The translations under genes and the position numbers were made by a program. Of a stretch of 64,000 nt of DNA, positions 22,346 to 47,729 are shown piece after piece; the stretch's first letter is position 1; every line of letters begins with the position of its first letter. Under the pieces are notes generated by a model. The model saw only the letters and a list, made by a program, of their open reading frames with translations. It made no database searches and had not been told where the DNA came from. The DNA lies in contig NZ_BSDY01000001.1 in the NCBI RefSeq assembly GCF_027925155.1, positions 300,508 through 364,507 on the forward strand. The letters are read 5' to 3'. Origin of the DNA: Propionigenium maris DSM 9537 (GTDB lineage: Bacteria > Fusobacteriota > Fusobacteriia > Fusobacteriales > Fusobacteriaceae).

Positions 22346-22364
22346 CATTATATTTATATTCTTA

Positions 22365-30838: not shown

Positions 30839-30925
30839 CTGGCTCCCCCCTTTTTTTATCAATTCCATATAAGTGTATTCTAAAAAAACCGATGAAACCT
30901 TTTTTTTGAGAAACATTTAAGGTGT

Positions 30926-30963
30926 CAAAAAAGGGAGACCCGCCTGCTTTTAAACAGGCGGGT
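30926..30963 (-). terminator. Terminator of the 16-kb glycan operon
   Basis: ACCCGCCTG (30938-30946) pairs with CAGGCGGGT (30955-30963); on the minus strand a TTTTTTG run follows after a few bases. It lies about 70 bases past the last operon gene. Confidence 0.8.
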
Positions 30964-31032: not shown

Positions 31033-31923
31033 TTAATTTATCTTCTCTTTTTTTGCATTATTTTTTATGAGCTCCTGGATCCATACCAGGGTAAGAGCCA
31101 GATACATATAGATCATTCCCAGGGTGAGGACGGGGTGTTTTATATACTCAATGAGATTTTCCCCTCTGTAGAGCACTCCCCTGAAGAAATACCATCTTCT
31201 CACTGTCTTCATGAAGCCTCCATCCTCACTTTCTATGGTCCTGTCCATTACTGAAAAGTAGTACCTCTTCTTTTGGAGGATATTCTTAAGGGTAACCCTC
31301 TTCTCATTGTGAGCTACTCCAGTGAACTCAGCTCTCTCAATAATCCCTCCCTGTTCCAGATATCTTATTGTAGGCTGAGTCTCCTCAAAGGCTATCTGAT
31401 TAAAGTTTATCCCTCCAGATCTCTCATACTCCTCTGTTCTCCAGAATCTGGCAGCTTCAATAGATGTTTTTCCCAGAAACCTTCCAGCTCTATTTACAAC
31501 ATTCCTCTCAAATACCTTTACCTTGGAAAAGAAGTTATCGTGATCTGTAAAGGCCCTTTCCGGTATAACCAGGGAACCTATCTGAGGGTTGTTCATGAGG
31601 TAGGAGATGCACTTTTCACAGAGGTCTTCCTCTAATATCATATCCGAGTCTATAATATAGATGTAGTCGGGATTTAGCTCCCTGGCTCTTTTCAGAGCCT
31701 TCTTTCTGGCTATCCCCCTCTCCCCGTGAGGAAGGAATATAGGGTGAAAGTTAGTGTGTCCATTGGAGATCTTTTTAAGGATAGCAGGAGTAGAATCGGT
31801 AGATCCGTCATCAGCTACCACCACATGAATATTTGCTCCCCTCTGATTAAGGGAACTCATGACACAGCTCTCTATAATCTCCTCATTGTTGTATGCTGAC
31901 AGCAGTATAACTAAGGTCTTCAT
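31033..31923 (-). CDS. Family 2 glycosyltransferase
   Basis: 296 residues. GT-A fold motifs: VILLSAYNNEEIIESCVMSS, VVADDGSTDSTPAILKK (nucleotide binding) and YIYIIDSDMILEEDL (metal-binding DSD). ERSGGINFNQIAFEETQ is the acceptor-side loop. A C-terminal hydrophobic segment (LTLGMIYMYLALTLVWIQ) would attach it to the inner membrane. It is the last gene of the glycan operon and its ATG overlaps the previous stop by 4 bases. Confidence 0.87.
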   Translation of the reverse strand: MKTLVILLSAYNNEEIIESCVMSSLNQRGANIHVVVADDGSTDSTPAILKKISNGHTNFHPIFLPHGERGIARKKALKRARELNPDYIYIIDSDMILEEDLCEKCISYLMNNPQIGSLVIPERAFTDHDNFFSKVKVFERNVVNRAGRFLGKTSIEAARFWRTEEYERSGGINFNQIAFEETQPTIRYLEQGGIIERAEFTGVAHNEKRVTLKNILQKKRYYFSVMDRTIESEDGGFMKTVRRWYFFRGVLYRGENLIEYIKHPVLTLGMIYMYLALTLVWIQELIKNNAKKEKIN

Positions 31924-33077
31924 CTCTCTACCTCCAGTCCCTCGATAAATCTATCGAAGTGGTCTTTTGTATTTCCCCAGTGAAAATTCAGTGAGAACTC
32001 ATAGGCCGCTTCCCTCATGAGGCTATACTTCTCCCTTTCCTCTATAACCTGCCTCATCTGGTAGATGAGCTCTCCCACACTATTCTCCCTGCACAGGTAG
32101 CCAGCTTCCCCGAGGTTGAGGGCATCTCTAATACCTGCAGAATCAAATCCGATACTCGGTGTTCCCACAGCAGCAGCTTCTGTTATAATAAGGCCCCATC
32201 CCTCCCTCAGTGAAGGAAAGAGAAGGCAGTGGGCTCTGCTCATGAGTTCTAGCTTCTTCTCCTCTGACACAAATCCCCAATAGGTGACATCTGGATTGTC
32301 CCCCTCCCTTGAAAGGGAGTACTTCTCCTCTATGGGCTTCAGTACCTCCTCTATATACACCTCCTTCTTCTTCCCTACGAGCCACAGCCTGGCCTCAGGA
32401 TAGAGGCCTTTTATCTGCCCAAAGGCCTCTAGAGCTTTATCTATTCCCTTGTAGTTGGAATACCTCCCCACATAGATGAAGGTAGGCTTCTCCTCCTTGG
32501 GAAGGAAGTTGTCCCTATTCCATGGGATGAAGTCGATTCCCTCTGGAAGGATAGTTACCCTCTCAGGCTTGAAGCCGATCCTCACCAGGTCCTCCTTGGT
32601 GGAGTTGGAAACTGTAATTGTGGGATCCCTCCTGGAAAACCTCAGGAAGGGTGTTTCAGTATATTTTCCTATCAGGTTTATGGGGAAGGCAGTGTTCATA
32701 TCCCAGATCTCCCTGGTAAGCTGATGGATGAAGAAGATCCTCTTTTTCTCTTTCACCCAAAACCTACTGAAGAATCGGTGGGTATTACACTGGTCAACTA
32801 CATAGTCTATACTCTCTCTGTTCTCTCTGTAGTAGTTTCTGGCCTCCAGTATAACTGAGAGCATGCCCCCTCTTCGGATATATCTTATTCCGTCTATGAT
32901 CTCCTCTCCTTCAGCTCCTTCAAAGAGGGGGGAAAAGTGGGTTATCTCATAGCGATCCCTGTCCAGCCTCTTTATCATCTCATGGGTAAATATCTCAGCT
33001 CCTCCCATCTTAGGAGCCTTTATATCTCTCCAGGAGAGAAAAAGAATCCTTTTCTTCTTAGCATATTCCTTCTTCAT
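31920..33077 (-). CDS. Family 4 (GT-B) glycosyltransferase
   Basis: 385 residues. The N-terminal lobe starts ILFLSWRDIKAPKMGGAEIF, a common GT4 opening; the C-terminal lobe has FIYVGRYSNYKGIDKALEAF and FPSLREGWGLIITEAAAVGTPSIGF, the EX7E nucleotide-sugar motif. GDP-mannose is a natural donor given manC at the head of the operon, but this is inference. The ATG at 33077 lies 20 bases inside the flippase gene with GAGGGGG upstream; a TTG at 33095 is the alternative. Confidence 0.87.
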   Translation of the reverse strand: MKKEYAKKKRILFLSWRDIKAPKMGGAEIFTHEMIKRLDRDRYEITHFSPLFEGAEGEEIIDGIRYIRRGGMLSVILEARNYYRENRESIDYVVDQCNTHRFFSRFWVKEKKRIFFIHQLTREIWDMNTAFPINLIGKYTETPFLRFSRRDPTITVSNSTKEDLVRIGFKPERVTILPEGIDFIPWNRDNFLPKEEKPTFIYVGRYSNYKGIDKALEAFGQIKGLYPEARLWLVGKKKEVYIEEVLKPIEEKYSLSREGDNPDVTYWGFVSEEKKLELMSRAHCLLFPSLREGWGLIITEAAAVGTPSIGFDSAGIRDALNLGEAGYLCRENSVGELIYQMRQVIEEREKYSLMREAAYEFSLNFHWGNTKDHFDRFIEGLEVER

Positions 33078-34278
33078 CCTTAACCGCCCCCTCAAAATAA
33101 AATATAGTAAAAAGAGTTAAAAATAGCAGTGTATAGAAACCTATTCCCCCATATAAAAAGTAGTCGATGCTCCTTCCATAGTGTAGAAGGAAGAAGCTAA
33201 ATAGCAGCGCAGTCCCTCCAAGGGGAAGGATATACTTCCTTCTGTCCAGGATAATATTTAAGTTAACCAGATAGAAGCTGTCTACCAGAGCTATATACAT
33301 AAATGCTCCCCTTAGAAGATACTCTGAGGCTTTTATATACTCTGCTCCAAAGAGATAGGCTACCGAAAGGGGCAGAATAGTCTCATAGGCTATAAGCATC
33401 AAAAACTGTACTCCCAGAAGGATGAAAAAGTATTTTCTGGCTCTCTCCTTGAAGACCTTTTTGTCTCCTACCTGGGAACTGAGGTTTGGAATAAAAACCG
33501 TAATAAGACTAAATGAGACAAAGAGTATAATCTGGCTGTATCTTAAGACCACAGCGTATATCCCGGAAATAGATGAAAGATTGTAGTTTATTATTATCAT
33601 ATCTATGGATGTAAAGTAATAGATAAAAAAGTTGGAGAGAAATATCAGTATTGTCTGCTTTGCCACAGGGGAGATACTTCCCTCACCCCTGACAATCACC
33701 CTCTTTATCTTTAGCTTTATGATACCGTGGAGCATAGCTGTACACATACCAAAGGCAACACTTAGAAGAACAACCTCTATCCTGTTGAACCTTGGGAGGA
33801 AAACTACCAGAAAGAGGATCTTGGAGAGAACCTCTATATAGAAGTTTATGTTCAGATTTAAAAACTGCTTCTCCCCCTGGAAGATCCCCCTCAATATACT
33901 CAAAAAGAGATTTAGAAGGAAGATACTCAGGGTAATTCCCAGGGCCAGGTGGGACCCTCTGGTAAAGGTAGCTATCCTTCCTGAAAAGCTCAGAAAGAAT
34001 AGGCAGATAATAACAACATAGACAAAGGCCGTCTTATATATCCTCTTGGCCCCGACCCCCTTTTTGGCCACCTCCTTAGCTGTAAAGGTCTGAAAGGATA
34101 TCCCGGTAACCAGGAGAATAGCCAGTATACTCAAAATAGCATTGAGGGTACCATAGCTTCTCTGACTCAGATACCAGCTGCAAAAGATATGAAAGAAGTA
34201 GTTTACTCCATTTAGGGCGATATCCAATACGGGAAAAACCTTTGCCTGGTGCTTTAATATCAGTGACTTTACCTCCAT
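33058..34278 (-). CDS. Polysaccharide flippase (Wzx/MATE-like)
   Basis: 406 residues with about 12 TM helices and little soluble sequence. LDIALNGVNYFFHIFCSWYLSQRSYGTLNAI at the start and SILRGIFQGEKQFLNLNINFYIEV are typical of oligosaccharide flippases of the MOP superfamily, which move lipid-linked glycans to the periplasmic face. The ATG at 34278 (GGAGGCGGG upstream) comes one base after the kinase stop. Confidence 0.82.
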   Translation of the reverse strand: MEVKSLILKHQAKVFPVLDIALNGVNYFFHIFCSWYLSQRSYGTLNAILSILAILLVTGISFQTFTAKEVAKKGVGAKRIYKTAFVYVVIICLFFLSFSGRIATFTRGSHLALGITLSIFLLNLFLSILRGIFQGEKQFLNLNINFYIEVLSKILFLVVFLPRFNRIEVVLLSVAFGMCTAMLHGIIKLKIKRVIVRGEGSISPVAKQTILIFLSNFFIYYFTSIDMIIINYNLSSISGIYAVVLRYSQIILFVSFSLITVFIPNLSSQVGDKKVFKERARKYFFILLGVQFLMLIAYETILPLSVAYLFGAEYIKASEYLLRGAFMYIALVDSFYLVNLNIILDRRKYILPLGGTALLFSFFLLHYGRSIDYFLYGGIGFYTLLFLTLFTIFYFEGAVKDEEGIC

Positions 34279-34279
34279 A

Positions 34280-36235
34280 TTATTCCCGCCTCCTCTTCCT
34301 TTTCTTTCTATCCTCAATCAGTGCCCTCAGCTTCTTCTTATCTAGGGGTTTAGTAAGGATATCGTCACTTCCAGCTTCCCTTATCTTATCGGTTTCATTT
34401 TTAAGGGCATAGGCTGTAAGAGCAACCACATGGATTATATTGATCTCCCCTGACTTCTTGAGCTCGGCAAGGACCTCAAATCCGTTCATTACAGGCATCT
34501 GTATATCCAGCAGGAAAAGATCGTATTTTTTACCGCTCCTGAATAACTCCAGAGCTTCTTTACCATTATCAGCAAAATCTATATTTACCTGGGATTTCTT
34601 TAACATCATCTCAAGAACCAGCTGATTATCCCTTACATCTTCAGCAACCAGGATATTAAACTCGGAATCCTTATTTTTTCCTTCATGCTCTACTTCAACT
34701 ATTGATCCATTAGATACGACTGGGCTCTCCTCCATAATACTATCCAGTGTCTCGTAGTCTGGGGTACTCTCCCTTGCCTCCTCTGTAGATGGGAGGGTGA
34801 GGTGGAAGGAGAAGGTGGTTCCCTCTCCAGGAGTACTTTTAACCTCTATATCCCCCTTCATAAGCTTACACAGTGCCTTGGTGATAGATAGTCCCAGCCC
34901 CGTTCCCTTGTGGTTGAGGTCCACCTGCTCAAAGGAGTTGAAGATCTTTTCCTGGTACTCCTTTTCGATTCCTCTTCCTGTATCCTCTACCTCACCCTTT
35001 AGAGTTCTATAGTTGTATTCTATCCTCACGTGGATATGACCGCTGTCTGTGAACTTAAAGGCATTTGAGATAAGGTTTATGAGGATCTGTCTTATCCTCC
35101 CCTCATCTCCCACTAGATATTGAGGAAGTTCCCCTACTCTTATGATCTGGAAATCCAGATCTTTTTCATTGGCCTTTAACCTGAATAGGTCCTCTACACT
35201 CTTTAGGAGATTTCTTACATTAAAGGGAGTGGTCGCTAGCTCTAATTTTTTTGCATCCATCTTGGAAAAGTCCAGGATGCTGTTTATAATTCCCAGTAGA
35301 TGATCACCCGCTCCCACAACAGAGGAGAGCCTTTCCCTTTTAAAGTTGTCCCTTTCATCCTCCAAAAGCAGCTCCGTATACCCCATAATTGAGTTTAAGG
35401 GGGTTCTCAGCTCATGGGTCATGTTAGCCAGAAATATATCCTTTAAGCTGTTCAGTCTCTCAGCCTCAAACTTGTTCTTCTCAAGGGTCTCCGAACTCTC
35501 CCTTATCTTGGAGGACATCTTATTAAATACCCTGATGAGCTCATTTACCTCCTTGTCCCTACCTGTTTCTACCTTGTAGGTATAATCCCCCTCAGATACC
35601 TTGGCAAGGCCATCCTTCATAATGAGAAGGGGGGAAAGGATGTGAAACTTTATAAGGGTGACATTGAGAAGGAAGAGCAGAAGCAGAAAGAAGGAGCTTA
35701 TAAGGAGAAGTACAAACTTCATATACTGGTGAAACTCCATCTCATCCTCTAAGTCATACCTCATATAGAGGATGTGTCTGTTTTTTGCTATCTCACTTCT
35801 TATAAGGTACTTCCCCTTTATAGGAATGGCCAGTTCATAGAAGTGGTTACTGTAGTTTCTGTTTCTTACTATAATCCTTCCCCGCTTTATAATGGGCTCT
35901 ATAAATCTTTTTTCAGTTGTTTCACCTACTTCTAGGGGAAGAGTGGAGTACTTAATAGCGCACTCACTGTCGTAGATCCTCAGTAGATCTACCTGGGTAG
36001 TTGAGATAAGCCTTTCAAAGAGCCTCTCTATTCCCTGGGCATCTTCTGCGTCCACTAGGGGGGTAAGTGCCCAGTCGAGAGTAGATGAAAGAGCGGCAAC
36101 CCTGTCCTCTACCCTCTTTTCAAAAAGCCCCTCAACAAAGGTTGTTATTGCCATATAGACAAAAAAACCTATAGCCATAGTATAGAGAAGCATCTTAAAG
36201 GGGATCTTGTAGAGAGCTGAAGTTTCCCCCTTCAC
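34280..36235 (-). CDS. Hybrid sensor histidine kinase with receiver domain
   Basis: 651 residues. TM helices at about 13-35 and 173-196 enclose a periplasmic sensor domain of about 135 residues. A HAMP linker (about 196-250) leads to HisKA with the phospho-acceptor His274 in NMTHELRTPLNSIMGY, then the ATPase N box NLISNAFKFTDSG, G1 DTGRGIE and G2 GTGLGLS. The C-terminal receiver starts ILVAEDVRDNQLV with phospho-acceptor Asp577 (FLLDIQMPVMNG) and Lys in ILTKPLDK. It is built to feed a phosphorelay. The gene overlaps the upstream binding-protein gene by 4 bases, so that protein may present the signal. Confidence 0.92.
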   Translation of the reverse strand: MKGETSALYKIPFKMLLYTMAIGFFVYMAITTFVEGLFEKRVEDRVAALSSTLDWALTPLVDAEDAQGIERLFERLISTTQVDLLRIYDSECAIKYSTLPLEVGETTEKRFIEPIIKRGRIIVRNRNYSNHFYELAIPIKGKYLIRSEIAKNRHILYMRYDLEDEMEFHQYMKFVLLLISSFFLLLLFLLNVTLIKFHILSPLLIMKDGLAKVSEGDYTYKVETGRDKEVNELIRVFNKMSSKIRESSETLEKNKFEAERLNSLKDIFLANMTHELRTPLNSIMGYTELLLEDERDNFKRERLSSVVGAGDHLLGIINSILDFSKMDAKKLELATTPFNVRNLLKSVEDLFRLKANEKDLDFQIIRVGELPQYLVGDEGRIRQILINLISNAFKFTDSGHIHVRIEYNYRTLKGEVEDTGRGIEKEYQEKIFNSFEQVDLNHKGTGLGLSITKALCKLMKGDIEVKSTPGEGTTFSFHLTLPSTEEARESTPDYETLDSIMEESPVVSNGSIVEVEHEGKNKDSEFNILVAEDVRDNQLVLEMMLKKSQVNIDFADNGKEALELFRSGKKYDLFLLDIQMPVMNGFEVLAELKKSGEINIIHVVALTAYALKNETDKIREAGSDDILTKPLDKKKLRALIEDRKKRKRRRE

Positions 36236-37128
36236 TGTATTATCTCCCCACTGTATAGTTCCTTAATATCTGCCTTTAACTCCATATCCTCCAGCTCCTT
36301 TTTAATGATATTTTCAATCTCCCTCTCTCCTAGCATAGACATATTATCACTATGGAAATAATACATCTTTCTGTAGAGTCCCGCATACTCACTCTTGTGG
36401 TGGCCCAGATCCTCCAAGATGCTGTGGAACTTCTCAGGCTCCTGCAGCTTAATAGCCAGAGCAGCATACCACGCATCTACAATACTCTTTAGTTCTCTCT
36501 TTCTTTTAAAGCTTTCCTCGCTGGCAATGAGGACCTCCTTTATCTTCTTAAGACCCCGGGAGTTTCTGTAGATCTCCCCCCTCTCCATTAGTCTATCGGT
36601 GTACTCATCATAGTAGTAGATAGCGTCCACTTCTCCATTTAGAAATGCACTGTGTCCCTCCTCCTCTGGGAGGAAGAAAATTTCAAGCTTATCTAGGGAG
36701 ATTCCCTCCTCTCTTATGAAGCTGACCAGCTCCAGGTACTCATTGGCACTTACCTCCACTGCAATTTTGCTTCCCTCCAGAGTACTAAGTCCCTGCCTCA
36801 CGAGGAGGCCCTTTCTCTTAAGGGTGTGGCTGGTAAGAAGAAATATCTTCCCCCTATCTCCCTTACCGTAGAAGTAGAGGGAGTCGAAGAGGGTAGAGTA
36901 GACAACATCCAGTCTTCCCAGATAGAAGGCCTCTACACTGTCCCCCTTGCTCTCAAACTCTATTATCTTAAACTTGTCATCTAAGTACCCCAGTTCCTTG
37001 GCTACTATAAATAACATTGCATTTTCATGGTCGTCTATACCAATGGTAACTGGTTCCCTATAGATAATGCACCCTGTAAGGATTCCAGTTAACAGAAGGG
37101 TGACCAATACTCCTCTTCCTCCCATCAC
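36232..37128 (-). CDS. Solute-binding lipoprotein (NMT1/SsuA-like), probable kinase partner
   Basis: 298 residues. The signal peptide ends TGILTGC (lipidated Cys near residue 20). VTIGIDDHENAMLFIVAKELGYLDD and GDSVEAFYLGRLDVVYSTLFDSLYFY follow the NMT1-like periplasmic binding-protein pattern of SsuA/ThiY, with KGLLVRQGLSTLEGSKIAVE as the hinge region. No transporter genes are near, and it overlaps the hybrid kinase by 4 bases, so a sensing role is more likely than import. It also overlaps the preceding GT2 gene by 4 bases. Confidence 0.72.
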   Translation of the reverse strand: MMGGRGVLVTLLLTGILTGCIIYREPVTIGIDDHENAMLFIVAKELGYLDDKFKIIEFESKGDSVEAFYLGRLDVVYSTLFDSLYFYGKGDRGKIFLLTSHTLKRKGLLVRQGLSTLEGSKIAVEVSANEYLELVSFIREEGISLDKLEIFFLPEEEGHSAFLNGEVDAIYYYDEYTDRLMERGEIYRNSRGLKKIKEVLIASEESFKRKRELKSIVDAWYAALAIKLQEPEKFHSILEDLGHHKSEYAGLYRKMYYFHSDNMSMLGEREIENIIKKELEDMELKADIKELYSGEIIQ

Positions 37129-38246
37129 TCCCTCACCTCGAGGGCCTGATCCTGCTTACACAGGATACTGGCAATGCTCTTTAAATAACGGAGGGAATCC
37201 CTCACTATATCCACATGGGAACCATCCCTGTCGATGCACCTCACAGGAAGCTGCATGGCTCTAAATTTAAGTTTCTTGCAGATATAGAGCATCTCCAGAT
37301 CTATAGCCAGCTCCCTCTCTACACTCAGGTGGGGAAGGATATACCTGGCAGCTTCCCCCCTCATCCCCTTAAGTCCCGTCTGGGCATCGTATATTCCCTT
37401 TGGCAGGAGGGGTTTTGTAAGGGTTCTCTTAATAAAGCTCAGGAGCCTCCTTACAGGAGGCCTGTTCTCAGCTGTAAGGTCCTTGGTCCCTGCCACCAGA
37501 TCATAGTAACCCTCCCTGAGGATATTTACTATCTTGGCAATATCCTCCACATAGAAGGAGTCATCTCCGTCAACTATGACAATAATGTTGCTGTGAACGC
37601 TCTTTAATCCCTCTATATAGGTTCCCGCCTTCCTGGTATTTTTCTCCAGTTCCCTTACCTCCAAGAATCCAAAGTCACTGATATAGGAGCTGCTTTCACT
37701 GAGTTTTTTTACGAGTTTTTCAGCAAGCTCTCCAGTACTGTCAGCACTTCCATCGTTGATGAAGTAGATCTTGGAGTTTCTATAACTCTCCTCCAGAAAG
37801 AGGTTCAATTTTTCAGCAAAATTTAAAACGTGTTCAAATCTCTCCTCCTCGTTGTAGAGGGGGACTATGATGGAAAGTTTAAATACTTCGCTGGCATACT
37901 CGGGATTTATAAGGGTATTTAAGAGCTCTACGATCTTATCCCCATTGTCTGCTGTAACAGAGTGTATCCTTATCTGGCCAGTCCCCTCTATTCTGGAGAT
38001 GTCACCAGAGGTGAAGATCTGGTTATAGTCTGTAAGTATTAGGATGGGAAGGCCTTGATACCTTCTCCTATACTCAGTGGCCAGTTCTATGGCCCTCTCC
38101 TTGGATAGGGTATCGATTATCAGTGTCTGTCCCTCCTGGGTATCCACTGCTTCCTCTATACTATATTCCTTAAAAGAGAAAAAACCCAGGATTTCACTGT
38201 AGTTAATATTACGTTTTTTACTTGTTGCCACAACTATCTGATCCAT
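37125..38246 (-). CDS. Family 2 glycosyltransferase with N-terminal receiver-like domain
   Basis: 373 residues. The first ~115 residues look like a degenerate receiver: QTLIIDTLSKERAIELATEYRRRYQGLPILILTDYN mirrors strand 3, helix 3 and strand 4 of REC, but the N-terminal acidic pair and conserved Lys are not obvious. From about residue 120 a DPM1-like GT2 begins: LSIIVPLYNEEERFEHVL, IYFINDGSADSTGELAEKL, VIVDGDDSFYVEDI and DAQTGLKGMRGEAA. A polyprenyl-phosphate mannose (or other hexose) synthase role is suggested by the likeness. It starts 29 bases inside the giant upstream gene. Confidence 0.78.
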   Translation of the reverse strand: MDQIVVATSKKRNINYSEILGFFSFKEYSIEEAVDTQEGQTLIIDTLSKERAIELATEYRRRYQGLPILILTDYNQIFTSGDISRIEGTGQIRIHSVTADNGDKIVELLNTLINPEYASEVFKLSIIVPLYNEEERFEHVLNFAEKLNLFLEESYRNSKIYFINDGSADSTGELAEKLVKKLSESSSYISDFGFLEVRELEKNTRKAGTYIEGLKSVHSNIIVIVDGDDSFYVEDIAKIVNILREGYYDLVAGTKDLTAENRPPVRRLLSFIKRTLTKPLLPKGIYDAQTGLKGMRGEAARYILPHLSVERELAIDLEMLYICKKLKFRAMQLPVRCIDRDGSHVDIVRDSLRYLKSIASILCKQDQALEVRE

Positions 38247-41200
38247 CTTTTTCCTCCCTTCTGAACTTTTCTTTCTGAGATCTCCTATGGAGAAGAACTC
38301 TGTATCCTCCGTAGGTGAGAAGGCTCACTATGAGAAGAAGAATTCCCAGGTAGTAAACTTTTCTTAGTAGGATACTAACCTCTCCTCTGCCGCTCTCCTC
38401 GGTTATAAAGTAGGCTCCTACCCCGTTCATAACCTTATCTACCCTCTCTCCCCCGATGGTTTCCCTCCAGAGGGGGTTGGGAGACTCGCCGTAGGAGATC
38501 ATCACCCTCTTATTCAGAGGATTTACAACCTGAAACTCCCTCTTCATAGAATCTATCCTTCTATAGGAGACCTCTACTCCTGTATCTGCTGGAAAAAAGT
38601 AGCTTTCCTCTTGGTCTATCTTCTTCTCTCTCAGAGTGATGTTGTCTAGGAGGATCAGCTGATCATAGGGAAGGATATTCAGGTTTTTCATCTGAAACAG
38701 TCCCTCCTCCTCCTTGTCACCCCTGCACCATATCTGCAGCTGCATGAAAGAGGCCCCTTCTGGAGGTGAAAGGATCTGTTCATAGGAGTTCCATCTACCT
38801 TTAAACTCCTCCTCTACCTCGTAGATATACTGAACATCCACTACATCCCTCTTCTCATCTAAAAATAGAACCTTCCCATGCCTCTTGTCCACTGTTTCTG
38901 ATCTGGCATCATAGCTTATGAGATACTCCTTTATAGGTTCTATAGGCATCATCTTAGAGGCATATACATACCAGTCGCAGGAGCAGGTAGGGTCATATCT
39001 TATATTGAGGATCTTCTGGAGCTTATCTCCATTGGAATCATCTGGCACCCCTATGATCTCATCCTCCATCATAGCCTCATCTATAAATTCACACTCGCTG
39101 CAGTCCTCCTGGAAGATATCCTCGAAAAATTCAGGCTCCATGATCTCAGCTGGATCAAATTTATGCATATCCTCCAAAGTGGTCATAGAGGGCGCCTTGG
39201 AGTTAAAGCTGATCTCAAGTTCATACTCTCCCACCTTTAGCTCTCTAATATTCCTTCTTCTCCTGGAGTAGTGGTTCAGTGTATCTGGGAGCTTTAGATA
39301 CCTTCTGGGAAAGTTCTCATAGAGGTAATCGGGAATGACGACGCTCTCCACACTTTCTTCCTCATCTTTTTCCTCTGCAATAGAAGTTTCACTAGCTTCA
39401 GGGGTAAATATCTCCCTCTTTACTATTTTCTTTTCTGAATCTCTCAGGGTAACTGTGAGGGTCCCATCATGCTCTGGAACAGCCTCCATTCCCAGAAGGA
39501 TCTCGTAGTCTGTATCCTTTAAAATCTCCACTCTCTTGGAGAGTCTTCCCTCCTGGCTTCTGATCCCCCTTCCTCCGCTGAGAAGAGGATAGCGTCTCTC
39601 AGACTGGATATTCCCCTCGTAATCAAAAGCATCCTCAGCTTCCAAGCTCATAAAGAGAGTAGAGTCCTTTATGAGCCTCCTTACTGGAAACTCCACCCTT
39701 CGCTTCTCTCCCTCTGGAATGAAAACCAGGGCGTTTATTGCATTAAACCCCTTTCTGTTGTAGATAGTTAACTTATCGCTATCAAGGGTAGTGCTCCCCA
39801 GATCTATCCACTGAAGCCTATTGAGATCTTTACTGTATGTATCTACATCTATGAGCTCATCTCCGTTTTCCAGCTGTATCTCGCCACCAGCTTTGGATAT
39901 AAGGGTTCTTATATATAGACTTCCCCTCTCCCCCTCCCTTCCAGGGAGTTCTAAGTGGAAGTAGTTTTCCCCCTTATACTCCTCTAAATCCTTGATATAG
40001 AGATCGTGGATCCACCAGTAGTTTTTCTGTTTATTGTTTTGAAAGGAGAGGAGATCCAGCCTCATATACTCAGATTTAGGGGGAGAGATATACTCTCCGT
40101 AGAAGTTCATCTCATCAAAAAAGAATTCATCCTTAGGGGCTACCACATAGCTGACCCCTATCTCATTGAGATCCCTATCGAAAAACCTCACCTTCACGTG
40201 AAGCTTATTTGTTCCCCTACCAGAGATAAGGAGATTAAACTGGTAGGGATTATTTTCCTTGGCCTTTATCAGTCCCGATTTAGCTACCTGCCATATTGAT
40301 TTAGGATCCCCCTTTATGATCTCCCCCCTCAGTACAGGTATCTTATTTGTAGCTTTTTTAGGGTTTGCCTGAACGGAAAAGAGGTGGGGGTTGTCAGCTT
40401 TAAAGAACTTATTTGTTCTCAGGAAGCTGTCAAAATCAGCGATTATCCTTCCCCTAAGATCCTTAAACTTATAGGGGGGAACATCCAGCCTGCTTGTGGA
40501 AAAGGTAGCTGCCATCCCTCTCTCCATATCAAAATCAAAGGGGAAGTTATCGATCCCCTGGGAGTTCAGGTACCAGGTCCAGTCACTGTTTTTTATGAGG
40601 ACCTTTCCCCAGTTCATAAATACATTGGCTCCCTCTATAGCTTCAAAGGGAAATGCATAGTACTCCTCAGGGAGGGTGGATAGGAGGAGATCGTTAAAGG
40701 TCTCAGTTTCCACGTAGTCATCACGGGTTCCCTCAAAGACCATCTCACCGTCAATCCTCTGGTTGGTAAATATTACCGGTATATCCCTGATCTCCATCCT
40801 GTCTGTGCTCAGGTAGGTTTCAAGCTTGGAGAATCCATAGGGAGTGTAGATCTTATTTCCATAGGCCTCCATATAACCTCTGGGATCCTTCAGTTTATAT
40901 AGATGATAGATATCATTCTCATAGTGCTTCTCCATCTCTCCCTGCTCCGAGAGGAGCTTAAGGTTGAAGTCTTGCCTTCTTTCCTTTCCCAGATACTCAT
41001 CGTGGTATGCTACTTCATCCACTGGAAAGGCCTTTAAAAGTTTCCCCATATTTCTGGAGAGGCCCCTGTCCATGAGATGCTGTATATAGTTAAGAAAGTA
41101 GGTTATACCCACGATATTCCCCTCGTGGTGAAATATTGTATTCTTTCTACTGCTATAGATATGAATATCTCCAGTAGCCTTCACAAACCCCTCCAGGTTG

Positions 41201-42744
41201 GGATTTTTATTCCATTTAGGGGTAGCCACCCCAGTATGGGGCTGTATCATATTGTCTGCCACTGGCAGGAAGAGTACCCTGCTAAACTCTCCCCCGTCGT
41301 AGAACTTATCCTGTACCTCCTTCATCTCTTGGGGGATCTCTACCGGAGAGTAGAACCCGTCGATAAATTGGAGCTTAAAGGGCTCGATATAGTACCAGAG
41401 GGAGAAGAGAGTAGTAAGAATAATTATCCCCTTGGTGAGGTAGCTCCTGTATGAATCCCTGAAACGTATGAGTACCTGCTCTACCCCGAAGGTCAGAAGC
41501 AGGGAAAACCCCACTGCCAAAAGGCCCACCAGCTTATTGGGGTCTCTGAAGATAGACCCTATTACTGGTGTCTTGGTCACGAATAAAACAAAGATGGGAG
41601 CCAGGGTCTCCACCTTGGTACCTGTAGATGCCACAATAAATATGACCGATAACACAGTAAAGAAAAGTATTATGTGGTATCTATAGGATCTGAATATCAT
41701 GGCGTGAAGAATAAATAACAGCAGTATCCCTCCACCTATATAGAAGGAGAGGGGAAGCTTGGTCATATCAAACATAGGCCACCAGTAGCTGTCCAAGTAG
41801 AGGATATTGGTAAAGGTGCTGTTTCTGCTAAAGAGTGACATTGTATCCACGGTGTTGATATTGTGCTGAGATGCCTGAGATCTTGTAAGGATGCTGAGGA
41901 CATAGTTACCCAGCCAGTAGAAGGAGGTAAGGGAGAAGAAGAGGATAAGTATCCCCAACTTCATCGCCATATTCTTTACAAAACCTCCAAGCTTGCTCAG
42001 GTCTGGCAGGAGCCTTATGCCATTTTTAATAAGAATAAGACCTCCAATTACAGAAAAGTATATAGCCCCATAGAAGAAGTAGTGGATAGCCCCTGCACTG
42101 ATGCTGTAGAGTAGAGCGAAGACAGCCATCTCCCTGATATTCTTCCTGTAGGGAACTACTCTTGATATATCATAGTTATCTATTACCTGGGCCTGAAACT
42201 TAGGGTCAAATATATCAAAAAAGAGCCTTAAAAGGAGGGGAAATAAGCTGTATCCACAGAGGAGGTAGATATGCTGTATCCTGAAGATTACCCATGGATT
42301 GAGAGCATAGTAGAGGGAACCTGTAACAAGGGCAAAGACCTTGTAGAAGTCAAACTCCTTGTGAAAGTAGAGGCTGACCACCCTTTTACTGAATAGGTAC
42401 ATACTTCCGGCAGATATTGTAATAAGCCCCAGAATAAAACTCTTTATTAAAAACGGGCCGCTTCCCCCAAAGACCATCGACAGGAGCCAGAAGGGGAGGA
42501 TATAGAGTAACCTCGGAATATTCAGAAGGGTAGAGGTAGACCACCTTTCATTCCATAGTCCAAAGATCTCTGTGAGATACCGGTTCGACTCATATCCAAA
42601 GGCAATATCACTAAATACTATATGACCCTTAGAAAATATAGGCTCAAAAGTCCAAAGGATAAATGAGAGCATAAAAATTCCAGAAAAAAGGTCGTATCTA
42701 TATGTATATATCAGTTCATTTATTTTTTTAGTATATCTCTTCAT
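38218..42744 (-). CDS. Giant GT-C-like membrane protein with large extracytoplasmic region
   Basis: 1508 residues. The first ~470 hold about 12 TM helices, with acidic residues in the first external loop (HIVFSDIAFGYESNRY) and a later GSIFRDPNKLVGLLAVGFSLL segment, resembling GT-C polytopic transferases such as the arabinofuranosyltransferase AftD and YfhO-like proteins. About 1000 residues then lie outside the membrane, including beta-rich carbohydrate-binding-like stretches, before a single TM near residue 1470 and a Lys/Arg-rich tail. It probably transfers lipid-linked sugars to a growing glycan or protein in the periplasm. The exact reaction cannot be read. Confidence 0.65.
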   Translation of the reverse strand: MKRYTKKINELIYTYRYDLFSGIFMLSFILWTFEPIFSKGHIVFSDIAFGYESNRYLTEIFGLWNERWSTSTLLNIPRLLYILPFWLLSMVFGGSGPFLIKSFILGLITISAGSMYLFSKRVVSLYFHKEFDFYKVFALVTGSLYYALNPWVIFRIQHIYLLCGYSLFPLLLRLFFDIFDPKFQAQVIDNYDISRVVPYRKNIREMAVFALLYSISAGAIHYFFYGAIYFSVIGGLILIKNGIRLLPDLSKLGGFVKNMAMKLGILILFFSLTSFYWLGNYVLSILTRSQASQHNINTVDTMSLFSRNSTFTNILYLDSYWWPMFDMTKLPLSFYIGGGILLLFILHAMIFRSYRYHIILFFTVLSVIFIVASTGTKVETLAPIFVLFVTKTPVIGSIFRDPNKLVGLLAVGFSLLLTFGVEQVLIRFRDSYRSYLTKGIIILTTLFSLWYYIEPFKLQFIDGFYSPVEIPQEMKEVQDKFYDGGEFSRVLFLPVADNMIQPHTGVATPKWNKNPNLEGFVKATGDIHIYSSRKNTIFHHEGNIVGITYFLNYIQHLMDRGLSRNMGKLLKAFPVDEVAYHDEYLGKERRQDFNLKLLSEQGEMEKHYENDIYHLYKLKDPRGYMEAYGNKIYTPYGFSKLETYLSTDRMEIRDIPVIFTNQRIDGEMVFEGTRDDYVETETFNDLLLSTLPEEYYAFPFEAIEGANVFMNWGKVLIKNSDWTWYLNSQGIDNFPFDFDMERGMAATFSTSRLDVPPYKFKDLRGRIIADFDSFLRTNKFFKADNPHLFSVQANPKKATNKIPVLRGEIIKGDPKSIWQVAKSGLIKAKENNPYQFNLLISGRGTNKLHVKVRFFDRDLNEIGVSYVVAPKDEFFFDEMNFYGEYISPPKSEYMRLDLLSFQNNKQKNYWWIHDLYIKDLEEYKGENYFHLELPGREGERGSLYIRTLISKAGGEIQLENGDELIDVDTYSKDLNRLQWIDLGSTTLDSDKLTIYNRKGFNAINALVFIPEGEKRRVEFPVRRLIKDSTLFMSLEAEDAFDYEGNIQSERRYPLLSGGRGIRSQEGRLSKRVEILKDTDYEILLGMEAVPEHDGTLTVTLRDSEKKIVKREIFTPEASETSIAEEKDEEESVESVVIPDYLYENFPRRYLKLPDTLNHYSRRRRNIRELKVGEYELEISFNSKAPSMTTLEDMHKFDPAEIMEPEFFEDIFQEDCSECEFIDEAMMEDEIIGVPDDSNGDKLQKILNIRYDPTCSCDWYVYASKMMPIEPIKEYLISYDARSETVDKRHGKVLFLDEKRDVVDVQYIYEVEEEFKGRWNSYEQILSPPEGASFMQLQIWCRGDKEEEGLFQMKNLNILPYDQLILLDNITLREKKIDQEESYFFPADTGVEVSYRRIDSMKREFQVVNPLNKRVMISYGESPNPLWRETIGGERVDKVMNGVGAYFITEESGRGEVSILLRKVYYLGILLLIVSLLTYGGYRVLLHRRSQKEKFRREEKDGSDSCGNK

Positions 42745-42760
42745 AGAACCACCTCACCTG

Positions 42761-43978
42761 TTATAGCTTATCCTTTATCTTTTCCTTCAACTCCTCATGG
42801 GAGCTAACCCTCTCTATAATCCTCTCATCTTCTCTGACCCTTTCTATAAAGTGCTTATTCTGATGGAGGATCCTGCCCTTGATGGTATCCAGGTTCTTGG
42901 TAAACTCATCCAGTTTATTCAGAGACCCCTCTATCTCTTCCAGATCATCGAAGATGTCGATGAGTTCCCTCTTTAAAAACTTATACCTTTTATCCCCCTC
43001 CCTCTCCACACTTATCCTTGCAGCTCCAGTAGAGTAAGATTCTGCAGAGAGTTTTATAAAAACAACAACGGTAAGGGTACCAGCCATGGCAATTATCCAT
43101 AGGAGGGATATCTTTGTTTTATATCTTGTGAGGGGGGCCTTATAGACCGCCTCATCCTCGTAGACCTGGAGGTAGACAGATGTCTCATCCAGTTCAATAA
43201 ATGAATAGGAGTAGAGTTCTCCCTTGAAGGAGTCTATTCCTACCCTTCCATCCAGCATCTTCTTGCTTACATCATTTATTACATACTCAGTACTCTCTAG
43301 TTCCCTGTTGGATGCCACAACATAGAATTCATCATTTAAGATATCAGCTTTAAAGGTTGACCTGGCTAATATCCTGTTCAGGTATGAATTATTCAGCTTA
43401 AAGTAGAGGTAGTACTCCCCTCCCCCTGGCTGAAAAAACTTGTAGTAGATATGCTGGTAGGTAGTGTCATTGTCTATGGTAAGCTTATTTATATAGAGAG
43501 GATCCTGAAACCTGAGGGATTTTATCTCCTTTTTAATGGGAAGCCACTCTCTTTCTACCGACTGATAGAGAATCCTGTACTCTCCATTGAGTAGAGCTAC
43601 CTCATCTACACCCATCTCCCTGTATCTGGAGATACTTTTATCTATAAAGTCGGTACTCCCCTCGGCAGCATAGGATCTTACTCCCTCTGCCATCTCCCTC
43701 TCTATCCTCCTGTAGTACTCCTCGGTAGCCAGTATCCTTTCATCCCTAGACCTGTTGAGCTTTGTAATGAAGTTTTCCACCAGCATGGAGTCTATAGATC
43801 TTATGGAGACCATTGTAAAAACAAGGAGCAACAGCAGGGATGTACCAAATATTCCGCTGATAAGCCTTATCATGAGCTTCCTTCTCAGGGTATCCATATT
43901 TTTTTCATAGTCTGCTTCTATCTCATTGCAAGGAGTCTTTTCTCTCCTAAATAATTTATACTTCTTTAAAATTTTCAT
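42761..43978 (-). CDS. Two-TM sensor-like protein with periplasmic domain and cytoplasmic coiled coil
   Basis: 405 residues. TM1 at about 36-60 and TM2 at about 285-305 bound a ~225-residue extracytoplasmic region resembling a double-Cache fold (SVEREWLPIKKEIKSLRF, YLYFKLNNSYLNRIL, FYVVASNRELE). After TM2 there is about 100 residues of charged helix (LIDIFDDLEEIEGSLNKLDEFTKN) with no kinase, cyclase or methyl-accepting domain. It could be a receptor subunit for the hybrid kinase, or a coiled-coil glycan chain-length-type regulator. Confidence 0.6.
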   Translation of the reverse strand: MKILKKYKLFRREKTPCNEIEADYEKNMDTLRRKLMIRLISGIFGTSLLLLLVFTMVSIRSIDSMLVENFITKLNRSRDERILATEEYYRRIEREMAEGVRSYAAEGSTDFIDKSISRYREMGVDEVALLNGEYRILYQSVEREWLPIKKEIKSLRFQDPLYINKLTIDNDTTYQHIYYKFFQPGGGEYYLYFKLNNSYLNRILARSTFKADILNDEFYVVASNRELESTEYVINDVSKKMLDGRVGIDSFKGELYSYSFIELDETSVYLQVYEDEAVYKAPLTRYKTKISLLWIIAMAGTLTVVVFIKLSAESYSTGAARISVEREGDKRYKFLKRELIDIFDDLEEIEGSLNKLDEFTKNLDTIKGRILHQNKHFIERVREDERIIERVSSHEELKEKIKDKL

Positions 43979-43988
43979 CTAAACCACC

Positions 43989-45314
43989 TTAAAAGTATGC
44001 CTTAACCCCTGCAGTCACCCTCACTATATTTTCCTCGGGAAGTCTGTTTTCTACAGGGATATTTGTACTGAGCCTGTAGAGCTCATAGGAGTTCTTCAGG
44101 ATAAACATGATATCCTCTGTAATGTACTTCTCATACTTCCAGTAGAATATATAGGAGGTCTCATCCATATACTGATCCTCAGTATCTGTTTCCCATTCAC
44201 CGTGTCTGTAAGCAGTTTCCTGACCTAGATAGAAATCACCCCAGACCCTGTACTCCACATATACCTTGGGAGCAAAGATCCAGGCTGAGTATGTATCTGC
44301 CTTCTTATATCCAAAGAGCTCCTGATTATCAAATATAATTCCAATCTCATCCTCAAAATCATATCCTCCTCCAGAGAACCCCAGAAGCCATCTGTTGCTT
44401 CTATACTCCAATCTCGGAGTCATCTTGAAGATATGCTGCCAGAAGCTGAGGTACTCAAACTTTTCATTTTCAAAGGCCATGTAGTTAAAGTAGGTAAACT
44501 CCTCTCCTACACTTCCCTTGGTTATGAATTGGGGAGTGAGCACATACTTATAGTATCTGTCCTCCTCCTTTCCCTCTACTTCAAATTTTTTATTGTAGTA
44601 TTTTCTGTTCTCCATATATCCCTCAAAGACAAATCTATTGCTTTCTGTGACCTGGGTCTGATAGATTATCTTAGGGGTTATAGTTACAGAGACAGCGGTA
44701 TTGTCATATACATTACTGTCCTTGGTATCTGCTATAACTACCTGATCATCCCTTACAATGGGAATGGGATCGGTAACCTCCTCCTTACCAACTACCACGT
44801 CATTCCAGAATCCCACTGTGAATCCGTGATCCAGTTTCTTAAAAAGGTCTCCGTAGAACTTTACACCAAAGTCCTCCTCATCCTTGTTCTTTCCAGATTT
44901 TCTTGGGTAGTCTCCCTCTATAACATAACGGGAGAAGTAGTCGTTGTAGTTTTCATAGAAGTTATCGTAATCAAGGGATCCCTTCATTCCCAGGATAATC
45001 CCCTTATCTCCCCAGCCATTGTACTGGTATCTACCACCAAAGCTGGTATATCCTATATTGTTGGCCATACTGTGGTGTTCGCCCTTTACATCATACTTAA
45101 ATACTCCCTCAAAATCTGCAGGATAGTTTATAAAATTATAGTAACCCTTTCCAAGGGTAAGGGTAGTGGCATCTATACTTCCACTATCTATATCCTTTAT
45201 ATCACTGTGCTGATACTCTATCCCAGTAAAGTGTTCCCCGTTAAATACTTGTGTAGCTCCCATGATCGAGGTCCCGCCCAGGATCATTAGTGCAGCAATC
45301 AATCTCCCCCTCAT
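43989..45314 (-). CDS. Outer-membrane beta-barrel protein
   Basis: 441 residues. A signal peptide (cleavage near SIMGA) is followed by long alternating strands with aromatic girdles and a C-terminal AGVKAYF ending in Phe, as in outer-membrane barrels; an 18-strand size is suggested. No family is recognised. Its position between the receiver gene and the membrane sensor suggests it exports or anchors the glycan made by the operon. It starts 5 bases after the receiver stop. Confidence 0.65.
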   Translation of the reverse strand: MRGRLIAALMILGGTSIMGATQVFNGEHFTGIEYQHSDIKDIDSGSIDATTLTLGKGYYNFINYPADFEGVFKYDVKGEHHSMANNIGYTSFGGRYQYNGWGDKGIILGMKGSLDYDNFYENYNDYFSRYVIEGDYPRKSGKNKDEEDFGVKFYGDLFKKLDHGFTVGFWNDVVVGKEEVTDPIPIVRDDQVVIADTKDSNVYDNTAVSVTITPKIIYQTQVTESNRFVFEGYMENRKYYNKKFEVEGKEEDRYYKYVLTPQFITKGSVGEEFTYFNYMAFENEKFEYLSFWQHIFKMTPRLEYRSNRWLLGFSGGGYDFEDEIGIIFDNQELFGYKKADTYSAWIFAPKVYVEYRVWGDFYLGQETAYRHGEWETDTEDQYMDETSYIFYWKYEKYITEDIMFILKNSYELYRLSTNIPVENRLPEENIVRVTAGVKAYF

Positions 45315-45319
45315 CTATC

Positions 45320-45862
45320 TCACCTCTTTATTTTAAGTACATACTTCAAGTTGAGGTCCAAGCAGTCCTCCCCAGCATCTTTTCTCTCAATTATTTCATA
45401 GTCTGTATCAAGGGTCTTTAAAAGTAGCTCCAGGATTTCCATGGAAACCACATCTGTATCGCAGTCACAATAGAACTTAAACTTTAGGTATTTAGAGTAA
45501 TCGATAGCTTTCTTTATTATCTCCCTTCCCTCACTATCTACCTTCCATGGTTTTGGTATATACTTATACACATCCCCCTCATTTATTGCCATTAGAAGGC
45601 TCCCAGTATTCAGGGATCCAGAAAGAGCAATCCTTACCACATTGGGGTTGCTCTTCCTGAGAGATTTAAAGAGTTCGATACCGTTTTTAGGCATATTCAT
45701 ATCACTGACCACTACATCTATATCCCTCTCCTTGATATACTCCTCCACTCCATCTGTGGTATCTAAAAAGTGTTTCTCATACTCCTCATCCTTCAGCCTG
45801 ATCTTCAGAAGCTCTAAAAAATCCCTCTGATCATCTATAAAAAGTACCCTACCCCCAGCCAT
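45320..45862 (-). CDS. Stand-alone response regulator (RpfG-type receiver)
   Basis: 180 residues. Receiver residues: Asp10-Asp11 (LFIDDQRDFLELL), phospho-acceptor Asp54 (VVVSDMNMP), Ser81 (IALSGS) and Lys104 in YKYIPKPW. The AINEGDVYKYIPKPW ending is typical of receivers found with HD-GYP domains, but here only about 60 residues of unknown type follow, with Cys pair FYCDCD. No DNA-binding domain, so output is probably protein-protein. Its start codon overlaps the Hpt stop (TAATG). Confidence 0.87.
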   Translation of the reverse strand: MAGGRVLFIDDQRDFLELLKIRLKDEEYEKHFLDTTDGVEEYIKERDIDVVVSDMNMPKNGIELFKSLRKSNPNVVRIALSGSLNTGSLLMAINEGDVYKYIPKPWKVDSEGREIIKKAIDYSKYLKFKFYCDCDTDVVSMEILELLLKTLDTDYEIIERKDAGEDCLDLNLKYVLKIKR

Positions 45863-46164
45863 TAAAACTCCTCCTCTACATACTCTATCTCCATCTCATC
45901 CATATGCCTGCTCAGGTTTTCTGCATCATCTCTGGCATCGGTGTACCTTTTTTCCTGCAGATCCTCGTCTACCTTGGACGCTATCTCACCTGCTCTTTCA
46001 AAACCATAGCTCCCCAGTACGCCCTTTAGGGCATGGGAAAGATCCTTAGCTTCCGAGTACCTCCTCTGAAACATATAGTTTCTCAGGCGGAGGATCTCCT
46101 CCCGGCGATTTTTGAGCATAGAGGGGATAATCTCCTGTAGGTCAACGGATATCCTTACAACCAT
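45862..46164 (-). CDS. Hpt phosphotransfer protein
   Basis: 100 residues, all helical. KDLSHALKGVLGSYGFERAGEIA carries the His-x2-Lys-Gly phosphotransfer motif with His44. It would pass phosphate from the hybrid kinase's receiver to the next gene's receiver, completing His-Asp-His-Asp inside one operon. The ATG at 46164 has AAGGGAAG 7 bases upstream and lies 4 bases past the manC stop. Confidence 0.85.
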   Translation of the reverse strand: MVVRISVDLQEIIPSMLKNRREEILRLRNYMFQRRYSEAKDLSHALKGVLGSYGFERAGEIASKVDEDLQEKRYTDARDDAENLSRHMDEMEIEYVEEEF

Positions 46165-46168
46165 AGTA

Positions 46169-47233
46169 TCACTTCCCTTCATTTACCTTTTTTAGTAGAG
46201 CTTTAATATCCTGAGCCTCCTCCTTTCTGCACACCAGAAGGACATCATCGGTTTCGACGATAACGGTATCCTTCATCCCAAGGGTGGCAATTACCTTCTT
46301 ACTTCCCTCATTTATAATGATATTGTCTCTGGAGTTGTGCTCCACCACCTGTTCTCCTTGGTGGATCCTCACTACCGAGCCATTTTCGCTGTGGGTAAAG
46401 ATATCGTCAAAGGCTGTGAAGTTTCCAATATCATTCCACCCGATGTCAGCTGGTAGCACCACCACATCCCTGGCTCCCTCCATCACACCGTAATCAATGG
46501 AGATCTTTTCAAACTCATCAAAGGCCCTGGACAGGGAATCTTCATCCATCTCCCCCTTCAAAAGTTCCTCGATGTTTTTAAGGGTACTCCAGTGCCCTGG
46601 CATGAGCTCTTCTATATGGGATAGGATGGTTCTATCCGACCACATAAACATTCCGCTGTTCCAGTAGTAGTTTCCCTTAGCCAGATAATCCTTTGCTACC
46701 TCCAGTACTGGCTTCTCCTTGAAGGAGGACACCCTGAAGGCTTCCCCTATCCTCTCTCCCTCAGCCTCTACATAACCGTAGGCTGTTTCCGGCTTATCTG
46801 GTTTTATCCCAAATATTGCTATCCTTCCAGGTTTCTCTATGAGTTCTTCTCCCCTTCTTATTATCTCCAGGAAGGTGTTTCTGTCGTTTATGAGGTGATC
46901 CGATGGAAGGACTATAAAGTTACACTCTCCTAGGAGGCTTCTTATATAGATACTGGCATATCCAATGCATGCAGCTGTGTCCTTGAACTTTGGCTCCACT
47001 ATAATATTTCTCTCTGGAAGAAAGGGTAGTTCTCCTCTTATATCCTCAGCCTGCTTTATATTTGTAGCTATGAAGATTCTTTCTGCAGGAATTATAGGAA
47101 GGATCCTATCCACAGTTTCCCTTATCATAGTCTTATCTGAAAATAACTTTAGAAGTTGCTTTGGGTGCTCCTCATTGGAAAGGGGCCAGAACCTCTGTCC
47201 GCTTCCACCAGCCATAATAATCGCTACTAACAT
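46169..47233 (-). CDS. manC: Mannose-1-phosphate guanylyltransferase
   Basis: 354 residues. The nucleotidyltransferase signature MAGGSGQRFWPLSNEEHPKQLL opens the protein; VLPSDHLI, SFKEKPVLEVAKDYL, YYWNSGMFMW and DIGWNDIGN follow in the usual order. It makes GDP-mannose from mannose-1-phosphate and GTP. It lacks the C-terminal isomerase domain of bifunctional ManC/AlgA, matching single-function enzymes. First gene of the operon; AGAGGAGG precedes the ATG at 47233. Confidence 0.93.
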   Translation of the reverse strand: MLVAIIMAGGSGQRFWPLSNEEHPKQLLKLFSDKTMIRETVDRILPIIPAERIFIATNIKQAEDIRGELPFLPERNIIVEPKFKDTAACIGYASIYIRSLLGECNFIVLPSDHLINDRNTFLEIIRRGEELIEKPGRIAIFGIKPDKPETAYGYVEAEGERIGEAFRVSSFKEKPVLEVAKDYLAKGNYYWNSGMFMWSDRTILSHIEELMPGHWSTLKNIEELLKGEMDEDSLSRAFDEFEKISIDYGVMEGARDVVVLPADIGWNDIGNFTAFDDIFTHSENGSVVRIHQGEQVVEHNSRDNIIINEGSKKVIATLGMKDTVIVETDDVLLVCRKEEAQDIKALLKKVNEGK

Positions 47234-47291
47234 ATTTTCCTCCTCTATAAGTAAAATCACACTTAGATTTGTTTCTTATTAACCTTATATG

Positions 47292-47320
47292 ATAATAAAC
47301 TTTTGTTCCTTCAAATTCAA
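47292..47320 (-). promoter_or_regulatory. Promoter of the manC-led glycan operon
   Basis: On the minus strand TTGAAT (47315-47320), 17-bp spacer, TATTAT (47292-47297), about 60 bases before manC. Confidence 0.75.
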
Positions 47321-47531: not shown

Positions 47532-47729
47532 ATGCATTACTTTATTTCTGGATGTGATGATAAGGGGATAGAAAAGATTAAAAAGGTAGAGAAGGAGAAT
47601 GATCTTCTTCTTATAGCTTACAGGGAGTCGGACTATGAGTATAAGGAGCTGTCTCAGGAGGAGCTTAAAAAGATAGCTCAGCTAGAGGAGGAACTTGGTG
47701 TAAGAATAATAGCTCTTAAGAAAAGTTAA
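47532..47729 (+). CDS. Small hypothetical protein
   Basis: 65 residues, not recognised. It is acidic and mostly helical (SQEELKKIAQLEEELGVRI), with one Cys (FISGCDDKG). No signal peptide. A strong GGAGGTGAG lies 4 bases before the ATG and a terminator follows, which supports a real gene. It is divergent from manC. Confidence 0.55.
   Translation: MHYFISGCDDKGIEKIKKVEKENDLLLIAYRESDYEYKELSQEELKKIAQLEEELGVRIIALKKS

Follow-up and report, generated by a model that had tools for sequence, protein, structure and literature searches.

In three-component extracytoplasmic glycosylation, a polyprenyl-phosphate sugar synthase, a flippase and a GT-C glycosyltransferase with a carbohydrate-binding module act in one pathway, an example being ORF15/14/12 (GT136) of Citrobacter youngae O1 (PMC11127046). 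In the mycobacterial lipomannan pathway (Ppm1, GT-C mannosyltransferases), polyprenyl-phosphate-mannose feeds GT-C enzymes (PMC3485146). On the side of control, EpsW of Myxococcus xanthus is a single-domain receiver that acts post-translationally on a glycan biosynthesis enzyme, EpsZ (PMC12802240). Here we analyse a locus of Propionigenium maris DSM 9537 that lies in a stretch of 64,000 nucleotides (contig NZ_BSDY01000001.1, positions 300,508 to 364,507; hereafter the window). Twelve genes encode, among others, a predicted GT-C glycosyltransferase (gtc), a GT2 glycosyltransferase with a receiver-like domain (gt2rec) and a stand-alone receiver (rec). By analogy, the enzyme logic would be that of three-component glycosylation and polyprenyl-phosphate-mannose pathways, and the control logic that of EpsW–EpsZ. 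We propose a polyprenyl-phosphate-mannose/GT-C pathway in which the receiver likely switches the receiver-fused synthase directly and post-translationally, a proposal to which we give an even chance.

How does this locus compare with the described systems? As in three-component glycosylation, a GT2 enzyme for a lipid-linked monosaccharide and a GT-C enzyme with a C-terminal carbohydrate-binding part are predicted. The flippase, which is dedicated in the known system, is here Wzx-like, scores under the Pfam cut-off and is found in 38 of 39 loci (38 from named genomes plus G009, in all of which gtc is flanked by 6 kb or more on either side; the window is excluded). The differences are that the synthase here has a receiver-like domain, that a receiver or relay is co-encoded, that GT4 and GT2 genes are present in 39 of 39 loci and that the predicted sugar is mannose. 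The lipomannan pathway of mycobacteria shares the feeding of GT-C enzymes by polyprenyl-phosphate-mannose, but the GT-C enzymes differ. To our knowledge, no receiver control has been described for it.

EpsW–EpsZ is the nearest precedent for control, and the operon receiver, like EpsW, is without a DNA-binding output; the target enzyme and the pathway differ. EpsZ is a large monotopic phosphoglycosyl transferase that starts a Wzx/Wzy pathway (PMC12802240), whereas the likely target here is a receiver-fused polyprenyl-phosphate sugar synthase. Neither a phosphoglycosyl transferase nor a Wzy polymerase was found by Pfam among the twelve operon proteins, to which the search was confined, so that the operon itself does not present a Wzx/Wzy-dependent pathway. 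The pep cluster of Paenibacillus polymyxa was considered as the same system and rejected: Wzy polymerases and a phosphotransferase are among its listed genes, and the terms ‘response regulator’ and ‘histidine kinase’ are absent from the main text of the paper on it (PMC7911366). In the parts of PMC11127046 and PMC12802240 consulted, neither a polyprenyl-phosphate sugar synthase nor a GT-C enzyme is linked with a receiver, and a search of the literature, largely without subscription journals, returned no dedicated study of this system.

Receiver and receiver-fused synthase across genomes

A stand-alone receiver like that of the window is encoded in 33 of the 36 loci with a full receiver-GT2 and in none of the three with a short GT2 (Fisher p 0.002, uncorrected for kinship). 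These three (L043, L046 and L047) have a GT2 of 255–257 residues without the receiver-like part. Five further genomes (G910, G1040, G1043, G1016 and G809) have both proteins, which brings the totals to 38 of 41 versus 0 of 3, the loci not being independent of each other. None of the receivers counted has an OmpR-type tail by BLAST; the counts take in those of Exiguobacterium L021, L022 and L031, which are displaced by an over-long manC frame, and the OmpR-type regulator beside the kinase of L046 was not scored as a stand-alone receiver. The exceptions (L009, L036 and L037) form one Paenibacillus lineage that is also without the Cache protein, and L009 has an OmpR-type regulator instead. The receiver gene adjoins the receiver-GT2 gene in some Clostridium and in both Bdellovibrionota genomes, where the two overlap by 14 bases (L041, G809), and in L019 the pair is present twice, with 12 bases between the two genes in one copy and 33 in the other. 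Besides the window-type receiver, an extra short receiver open reading frame (ORF) stands beside the receiver-GT2 gene on the same strand in L007 (2236–2628) and L038 (4391–4795).

The earlier note had described a mannose glycan machine controlled directly by phosphotransfer. The gene set, the co-encoded relay and the lack of a transcriptional output in the operon agree with this description, and the idea of direct control gains strength from the comparison of genomes: most loci with the receiver-like GT2 have kept the receiver as well, and in several the two are neighbours. We place the switch at the enzyme mainly because the inputs vary by lineage while the set of receiver, receiver-GT2 and GT-C protein mostly stays.

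Several observations weigh against this placement. In Paenibacillus, Exiguobacterium and others the receiver lies ~3 kb from the receiver-GT2, often on the opposite strand, and in the window the distance is 7 kb. Moreover, an OmpR-type DNA-binding regulator is encoded in Paenibacillus L008 and L009, and in L027 and L046, so that transcriptional control is not absent everywhere. The same regulators would fit ordinary two-component regulation, in which the relay would ultimately govern transcription of the operon via a regulator encoded elsewhere. We consider this very improbable: as the earlier note had stated, no DNA-binding domain is present in the operon (Pfam, twelve proteins), nor did Pfam return a DNA-binding family for 17 window-type receivers, that of the window included. 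The separation of receiver and gt2rec in Paenibacillus and Exiguobacterium is also what one would expect if the receiver and relay acted elsewhere, on the Cache protein, gtc, the flippase or motility, and co-location meant joint expression only. The joint absence of receiver and Cache protein from three Paenibacillus loci and a Cache chemoreceptor that overlaps gt2rec in G1016 point in the same direction. However, the receiver is missing where the GT2 is without its receiver-like part, and it adjoins gt2rec in both Bacillota and Bdellovibrionota; an action elsewhere is thus unlikely in our view.

All four phosphorylatable residues of the His-Asp-His-Asp relay named in the earlier note (HisKA, REC, Hpt, REC; Table 1) are intact in the window. 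The Hpt histidine is invariant in 9 of 9 aligned sequences. The 4.1 Mb assembly has 27 receiver matches and two Hpt matches: that of the operon lies in a short ORF of 106 residues, the other in a frame of 1671. From these genome densities ~0.1 receivers and 0.008 Hpt proteins would be expected in 16.2 kb, and 2 and 1 are seen. Asp10, Asp11, Asp54 and Lys104 are all kept in 26 of 37 receivers. All 11 Exiguobacterium receivers carry Glu in place of Asp54, in loci without an Hpt match, and here the receiver may have given up phosphorylation and still be required as a partner protein.

The inputs differ between lineages. A hybrid kinase with Hpt is found in Fusobacteriota and several Clostridia. 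The Cache homologue of Paenibacillus L008 (8211–9944) ends in HATPase_c (4.4e-07) without a HisKA match, and the extension on the HATPase_c side is present in all four Paenibacillus rows aligned. A dCache-HAMP-MCP chemoreceptor overlaps the receiver-GT2 gene in G1016 (L061, 5185–7179), an arrangement recalling, by analogy, the chemosensory control of EpsW. In L008, a 153-residue protein of no known family (7753–8214; cluster c16) precedes the Cache homologue. In L004 (Fusobacteriaceae UBA2433) a second kinase (20791–22725), also ~46% identical to that of the window, comes right after gt2.

How might the proposed pathway operate? From the gene set, domains, predicted folds, residues and co-occurrence we infer the donor sugar, the order of steps, the phosphotransfer and the contact between receiver and synthase with its sign. 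ManC would make GDP-mannose, and gt2rec, a DPMS-like GT2, would make polyprenyl-phosphate-mannose, while GT4 and GT2 would assemble an acceptor at the cytoplasmic face. The flippase would turn lipid-linked intermediates outward, and gtc would add mannose to a cell-surface glycan outside the membrane, its carbohydrate-binding-like tail keeping it on the product. In diderm Fusobacteriota the barrel would pass the product through the outer membrane, a role based on its presence in three fusobacterial loci. The lipoprotein and the hybrid kinase would sense an outside signal and the phosphate would travel from His274 to Asp577, then to His50 of Hpt and Asp54 of the receiver. The phosphorylated receiver would then turn donor supply up or down by pairing with gt2rec through the degenerate receiver domain of that enzyme. 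If the receiver gates the synthase in this way, phosphorylation would determine how much glycan is made without gene expression, and two-component signalling would be wired straight into transmembrane mannosylation. We advance more tentatively, leaning somewhat against it, the wider idea of a hitherto undescribed multi-phylum system in which a polyprenyl-phosphate-mannose synthase gained a receiver-like domain as a dock for the phosphorylated receiver, which would thereby gate the lipid-linked mannose that reaches a new family of AftD-like GT-C proteins.

A six-gene core and its distribution

Among named genomes, one scan found 44 gtc loci, which are spread over Fusobacteriota, Clostridium, Peptoclostridium, Paenibacillus, Brevibacillus, Exiguobacterium, Lysinibacillus, Ureibacillus, Bacillus and other Bacillota, a Thermotogales metagenome-assembled genome, Margulisiibacteriota and Bdellovibrionales. 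Duplicate or short loci were left out (L001–L003, L048, L049 and L051); 45 remained, of which L015, L020, L023, L034, L039 and L040 were dropped for short flanks. Among the extra genomes, G358 duplicates the L047 contig and was excluded. Besides the GT4, GT2 and flippase genes, gtc is accompanied by receiver-GT2 in 36 of the 39 loci, ManC in 31, the Cache protein in 19, Hpt in 9, the barrel in 2 and the lipoprotein in 1; a kinase like that of the window is present in at least 8, a lower bound that counts only matches over about half of its length. The single locus scored without a flippase (L038, Brevibacillus) has it fused to GT4, and a GT4–GT2 fusion is found in Margulisiibacteriota (L034). 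A cluster with members in 11 loci was tested in L022 and L027, and in both it proved to be mannose-6-phosphate isomerase.

The conserved core is made of gtc, receiver-GT2, flippase, GT4, GT2 and the stand-alone receiver, while the other six genes (for ManC, Hpt, the kinase, the Cache protein, the lipoprotein and the barrel) vary by lineage. The six-gene set recurs in several phyla; the twelve genes of the earlier note are not the unit that is conserved. In G1040, G1043 and G1016 six genes are collinear (receiver-GT2, a 131-residue receiver, flippase, GT4, GT2 and gtc), and within ~12 kb on each side there is no match to the kinase, Hpt or ManC of the window. The six-gene version is very probably present in the genetically tractable Clostridium acetobutylicum, the genome being, we presume, that of strain ATCC 824, which makes the idea directly testable. 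CA_C2407, listed as a CheY-like protein (PMC3044671), would be the receiver of the six-gene operon, to judge from tag numbers estimated by position.

In whole-genome sampling gtc is rare and patchy. It is present in 3 of 98 Fusobacteriota, the window's own genome included; this genome and G011 (L004) belong to the same family. With the centre genome counted each time, gtc was found in 2 of 261 genomes in the order of G098 (the other is G358, L047 again), 2 of 291 in the class of G099 (the second only at E 2.6e-4 over 73 positions, likely by chance), 2 of 240 in the phylum of G101 and 7 of 206 in the family of G099. In a gtc tree, built by a quick method with a midpoint root and flagged for its numerous long branches and skewed rows, the window and L004 group with Peptoclostridium and G009 (supported, four rows). 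Because this group sits among Bacillota rows, the tree suggests transfer of gtc between phyla; the placements of Margulisiibacteriota and Bdellovibrionales are uncertain. One Bdellovibrionota gtc homologue (G809:C56:34065-38287) is interrupted by a TAG codon and by a break in the frame.

Predicted folds of gtc and gt2rec

The gtc protein has no Pfam match at E 0.5 and no NCBIfam match. By predicted fold, it is an AftD-like GT-C protein with a carbohydrate-binding-like tail: the mycobacterial arabinofuranosyltransferase AftD (6w98) ranks first in both Foldseek and VIA, and is likewise built of a long GT-C membrane domain with carbohydrate-binding jelly rolls behind it. Many lower Foldseek rows are unrelated jelly-roll proteins with TM ~0.1 of the model. 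Unlike the fold, the sequence does not place gtc in the AftD family: identity is 12%, Pfam gave no match, and a profile of 29 gtc homologues retrieved neither an AftD chain nor any other solved GT-C from the PDB at E up to 10. The sequence search of the PDB returned only glucoamylase scraps (E 0.27 or worse). The neighbours also differ, ManC and a DPMS-like GT2 standing here in place of arabinan genes.

The GT2 part of gt2rec has the predicted fold of a polyprenyl-phosphate-mannose synthase. Its degenerate receiver domain is missed by Pfam, and the VIA rows mostly span residues 120–373, so that the fold search hardly probed the receiver-like part. A large family unrecognised by Pfam and NCBIfam in the window thus has an AftD-like predicted fold, and the enzyme that likely feeds it bears a receiver-like domain. 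Alternatively, GT4, GT2 and the flippase could make a lipid-linked oligosaccharide that gtc transfers whole to protein or lipid, in the manner of an oligosaccharyltransferase or ligase, with gt2rec making only one lipid-linked donor. We think this rather unlikely: AftD, which has a long carbohydrate-binding tail in common with gtc, leads both fold searches, and the presence of a polyprenyl-phosphate synthase among the core genes suggests that the donor is a monosaccharide.

Operon layout and neighbouring features

The twelve consecutive minus-strand ORFs form one tightly packed run at 31033–47260 (Table 1), as the earlier note had reported from the ORF list. Three gaps measure 5, 10 and 16 bases and six overlaps 1–29 bases, in keeping with the limits given there; two overlaps of 38 bases that flank the flippase exceed them, and become smaller with internal ATG starts of the flippase and GT4. 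The start of manC is very probably the ATG at 47233, which matches the end coordinate of the earlier note. The terminator claimed after gt2 was recovered as the hairpin with the highest G-C pair count in a scan that gave 33 sites (17.4 +/- 4.6 expected). The ‘one clear promoter’ at 47292–47320 did not stand out: it is one of 34 matches, with 33.9 +/- 6.3 expected by chance. No Rfam family reached its gathering score within the window.

Table 1. Genes of the operon and its terminator, in the order of transcription (window coordinates)
Feature	Coordinates	Strand	Evidence
manC, mannose-1-phosphate guanylyltransferase, predicted GDP-mannose supply	46169-47260	-	Pfam NTP_transferase 8.7e-40, ManC beta-helix 8.4e-13
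hpt, stand-alone His phosphotransfer protein, His50	45862-46182	-	Pfam Hpt 9.1e-06
rec, stand-alone receiver, Asp10/Asp11/Asp54/Lys104	45320-45862	-	Pfam Response_reg 1.1e-15
omp, predicted outer-membrane beta-barrel (call of the earlier note)	43989-45314	-	no family match
cache, predicted membrane sensor, two transmembrane helices, coiled-coil-like tail	42761-43978	-	transmembrane peaks; directly upstream of gtc
gtc, 1508-residue AftD-like GT-C glycosyltransferase, carbohydrate-binding-like jelly-roll domains	38218-42744	-	predicted fold
gt2rec, degenerate receiver-like domain (1-113) and polyprenyl-phosphate-sugar synthase GT2 (120-365)	37125-38246	-	
lip, NMT1/SsuA-type substrate-binding lipoprotein, predicted kinase input	36232-37128	-	Pfam NMT1 6.1e-05
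hk, hybrid histidine kinase, His274, receiver Asp577	34280-36235	-	HAMP, HisKA, HATPase_c, Response_reg
flip, Wzx-like flippase	33058-34317	-	Polysacc_synt 21.6 bits (cut-off 28.2), 11 transmembrane peaks
gt4, cytoplasmic GT4 glycosyltransferase	31920-33095	-	Glycos_transf_1 1.4e-30
gt2, GT2 glycosyltransferase, one predicted C-terminal transmembrane helix	31033-31923	-	Glycos_transf_2 1.1e-21, transmembrane peak
intrinsic terminator-like hairpin	30938-30963	-	after gt2; 11 pairs, 7 G-C, T-rich tail

Pfam bears out the domains named by the earlier note for ManC, Hpt, the receiver, both GT2 proteins, the NMT1-type protein, the hybrid kinase and GT4, with the flippase below cut-off. ManC matches TIGR01479 at 1.8e-79, yet under the cut-off, and no fused isomerase domain was reported. 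The lipoprotein matches TIGR01728 at 8.8e-16, likewise under cut-off, and the adjacency of lip and hk is also seen in L050. The receiver has a tail of ~60 residues without a known domain. The Cache fold assigned by the earlier note was not confirmed, Pfam giving only a match below cut-off (0.066), NCBIfam no significant family and a profile search of the PDB nothing meaningful. The barrel protein has no Pfam match at E 0.5 and no NCBIfam match; the copies in L004 and L050 are 66% and 51% identical to it, and the barrel was seen only in the three fusobacterial loci. A 285-residue frame opposite its gene (44433–45290, plus strand) is probably a shadow ORF.

Upstream of manC is a gap of 830 bases, in which a divergent ORF of 65 residues (47532–47729, plus strand) has a ribosome-binding-like sequence and is followed by a hairpin. 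Further upstream are genes for a phosphotransferase system (PTS) IIBC permease (48144–49577, minus strand) and a glucosamine-6-phosphate isomerase-like protein (50149–50970, plus strand). Directly past the operon terminator lies the gene of a DUF5348 protein (30428–30916, minus strand), and elsewhere in the window a FadL/TodX-type outer-membrane transporter is encoded at 22365–23705 (minus strand).

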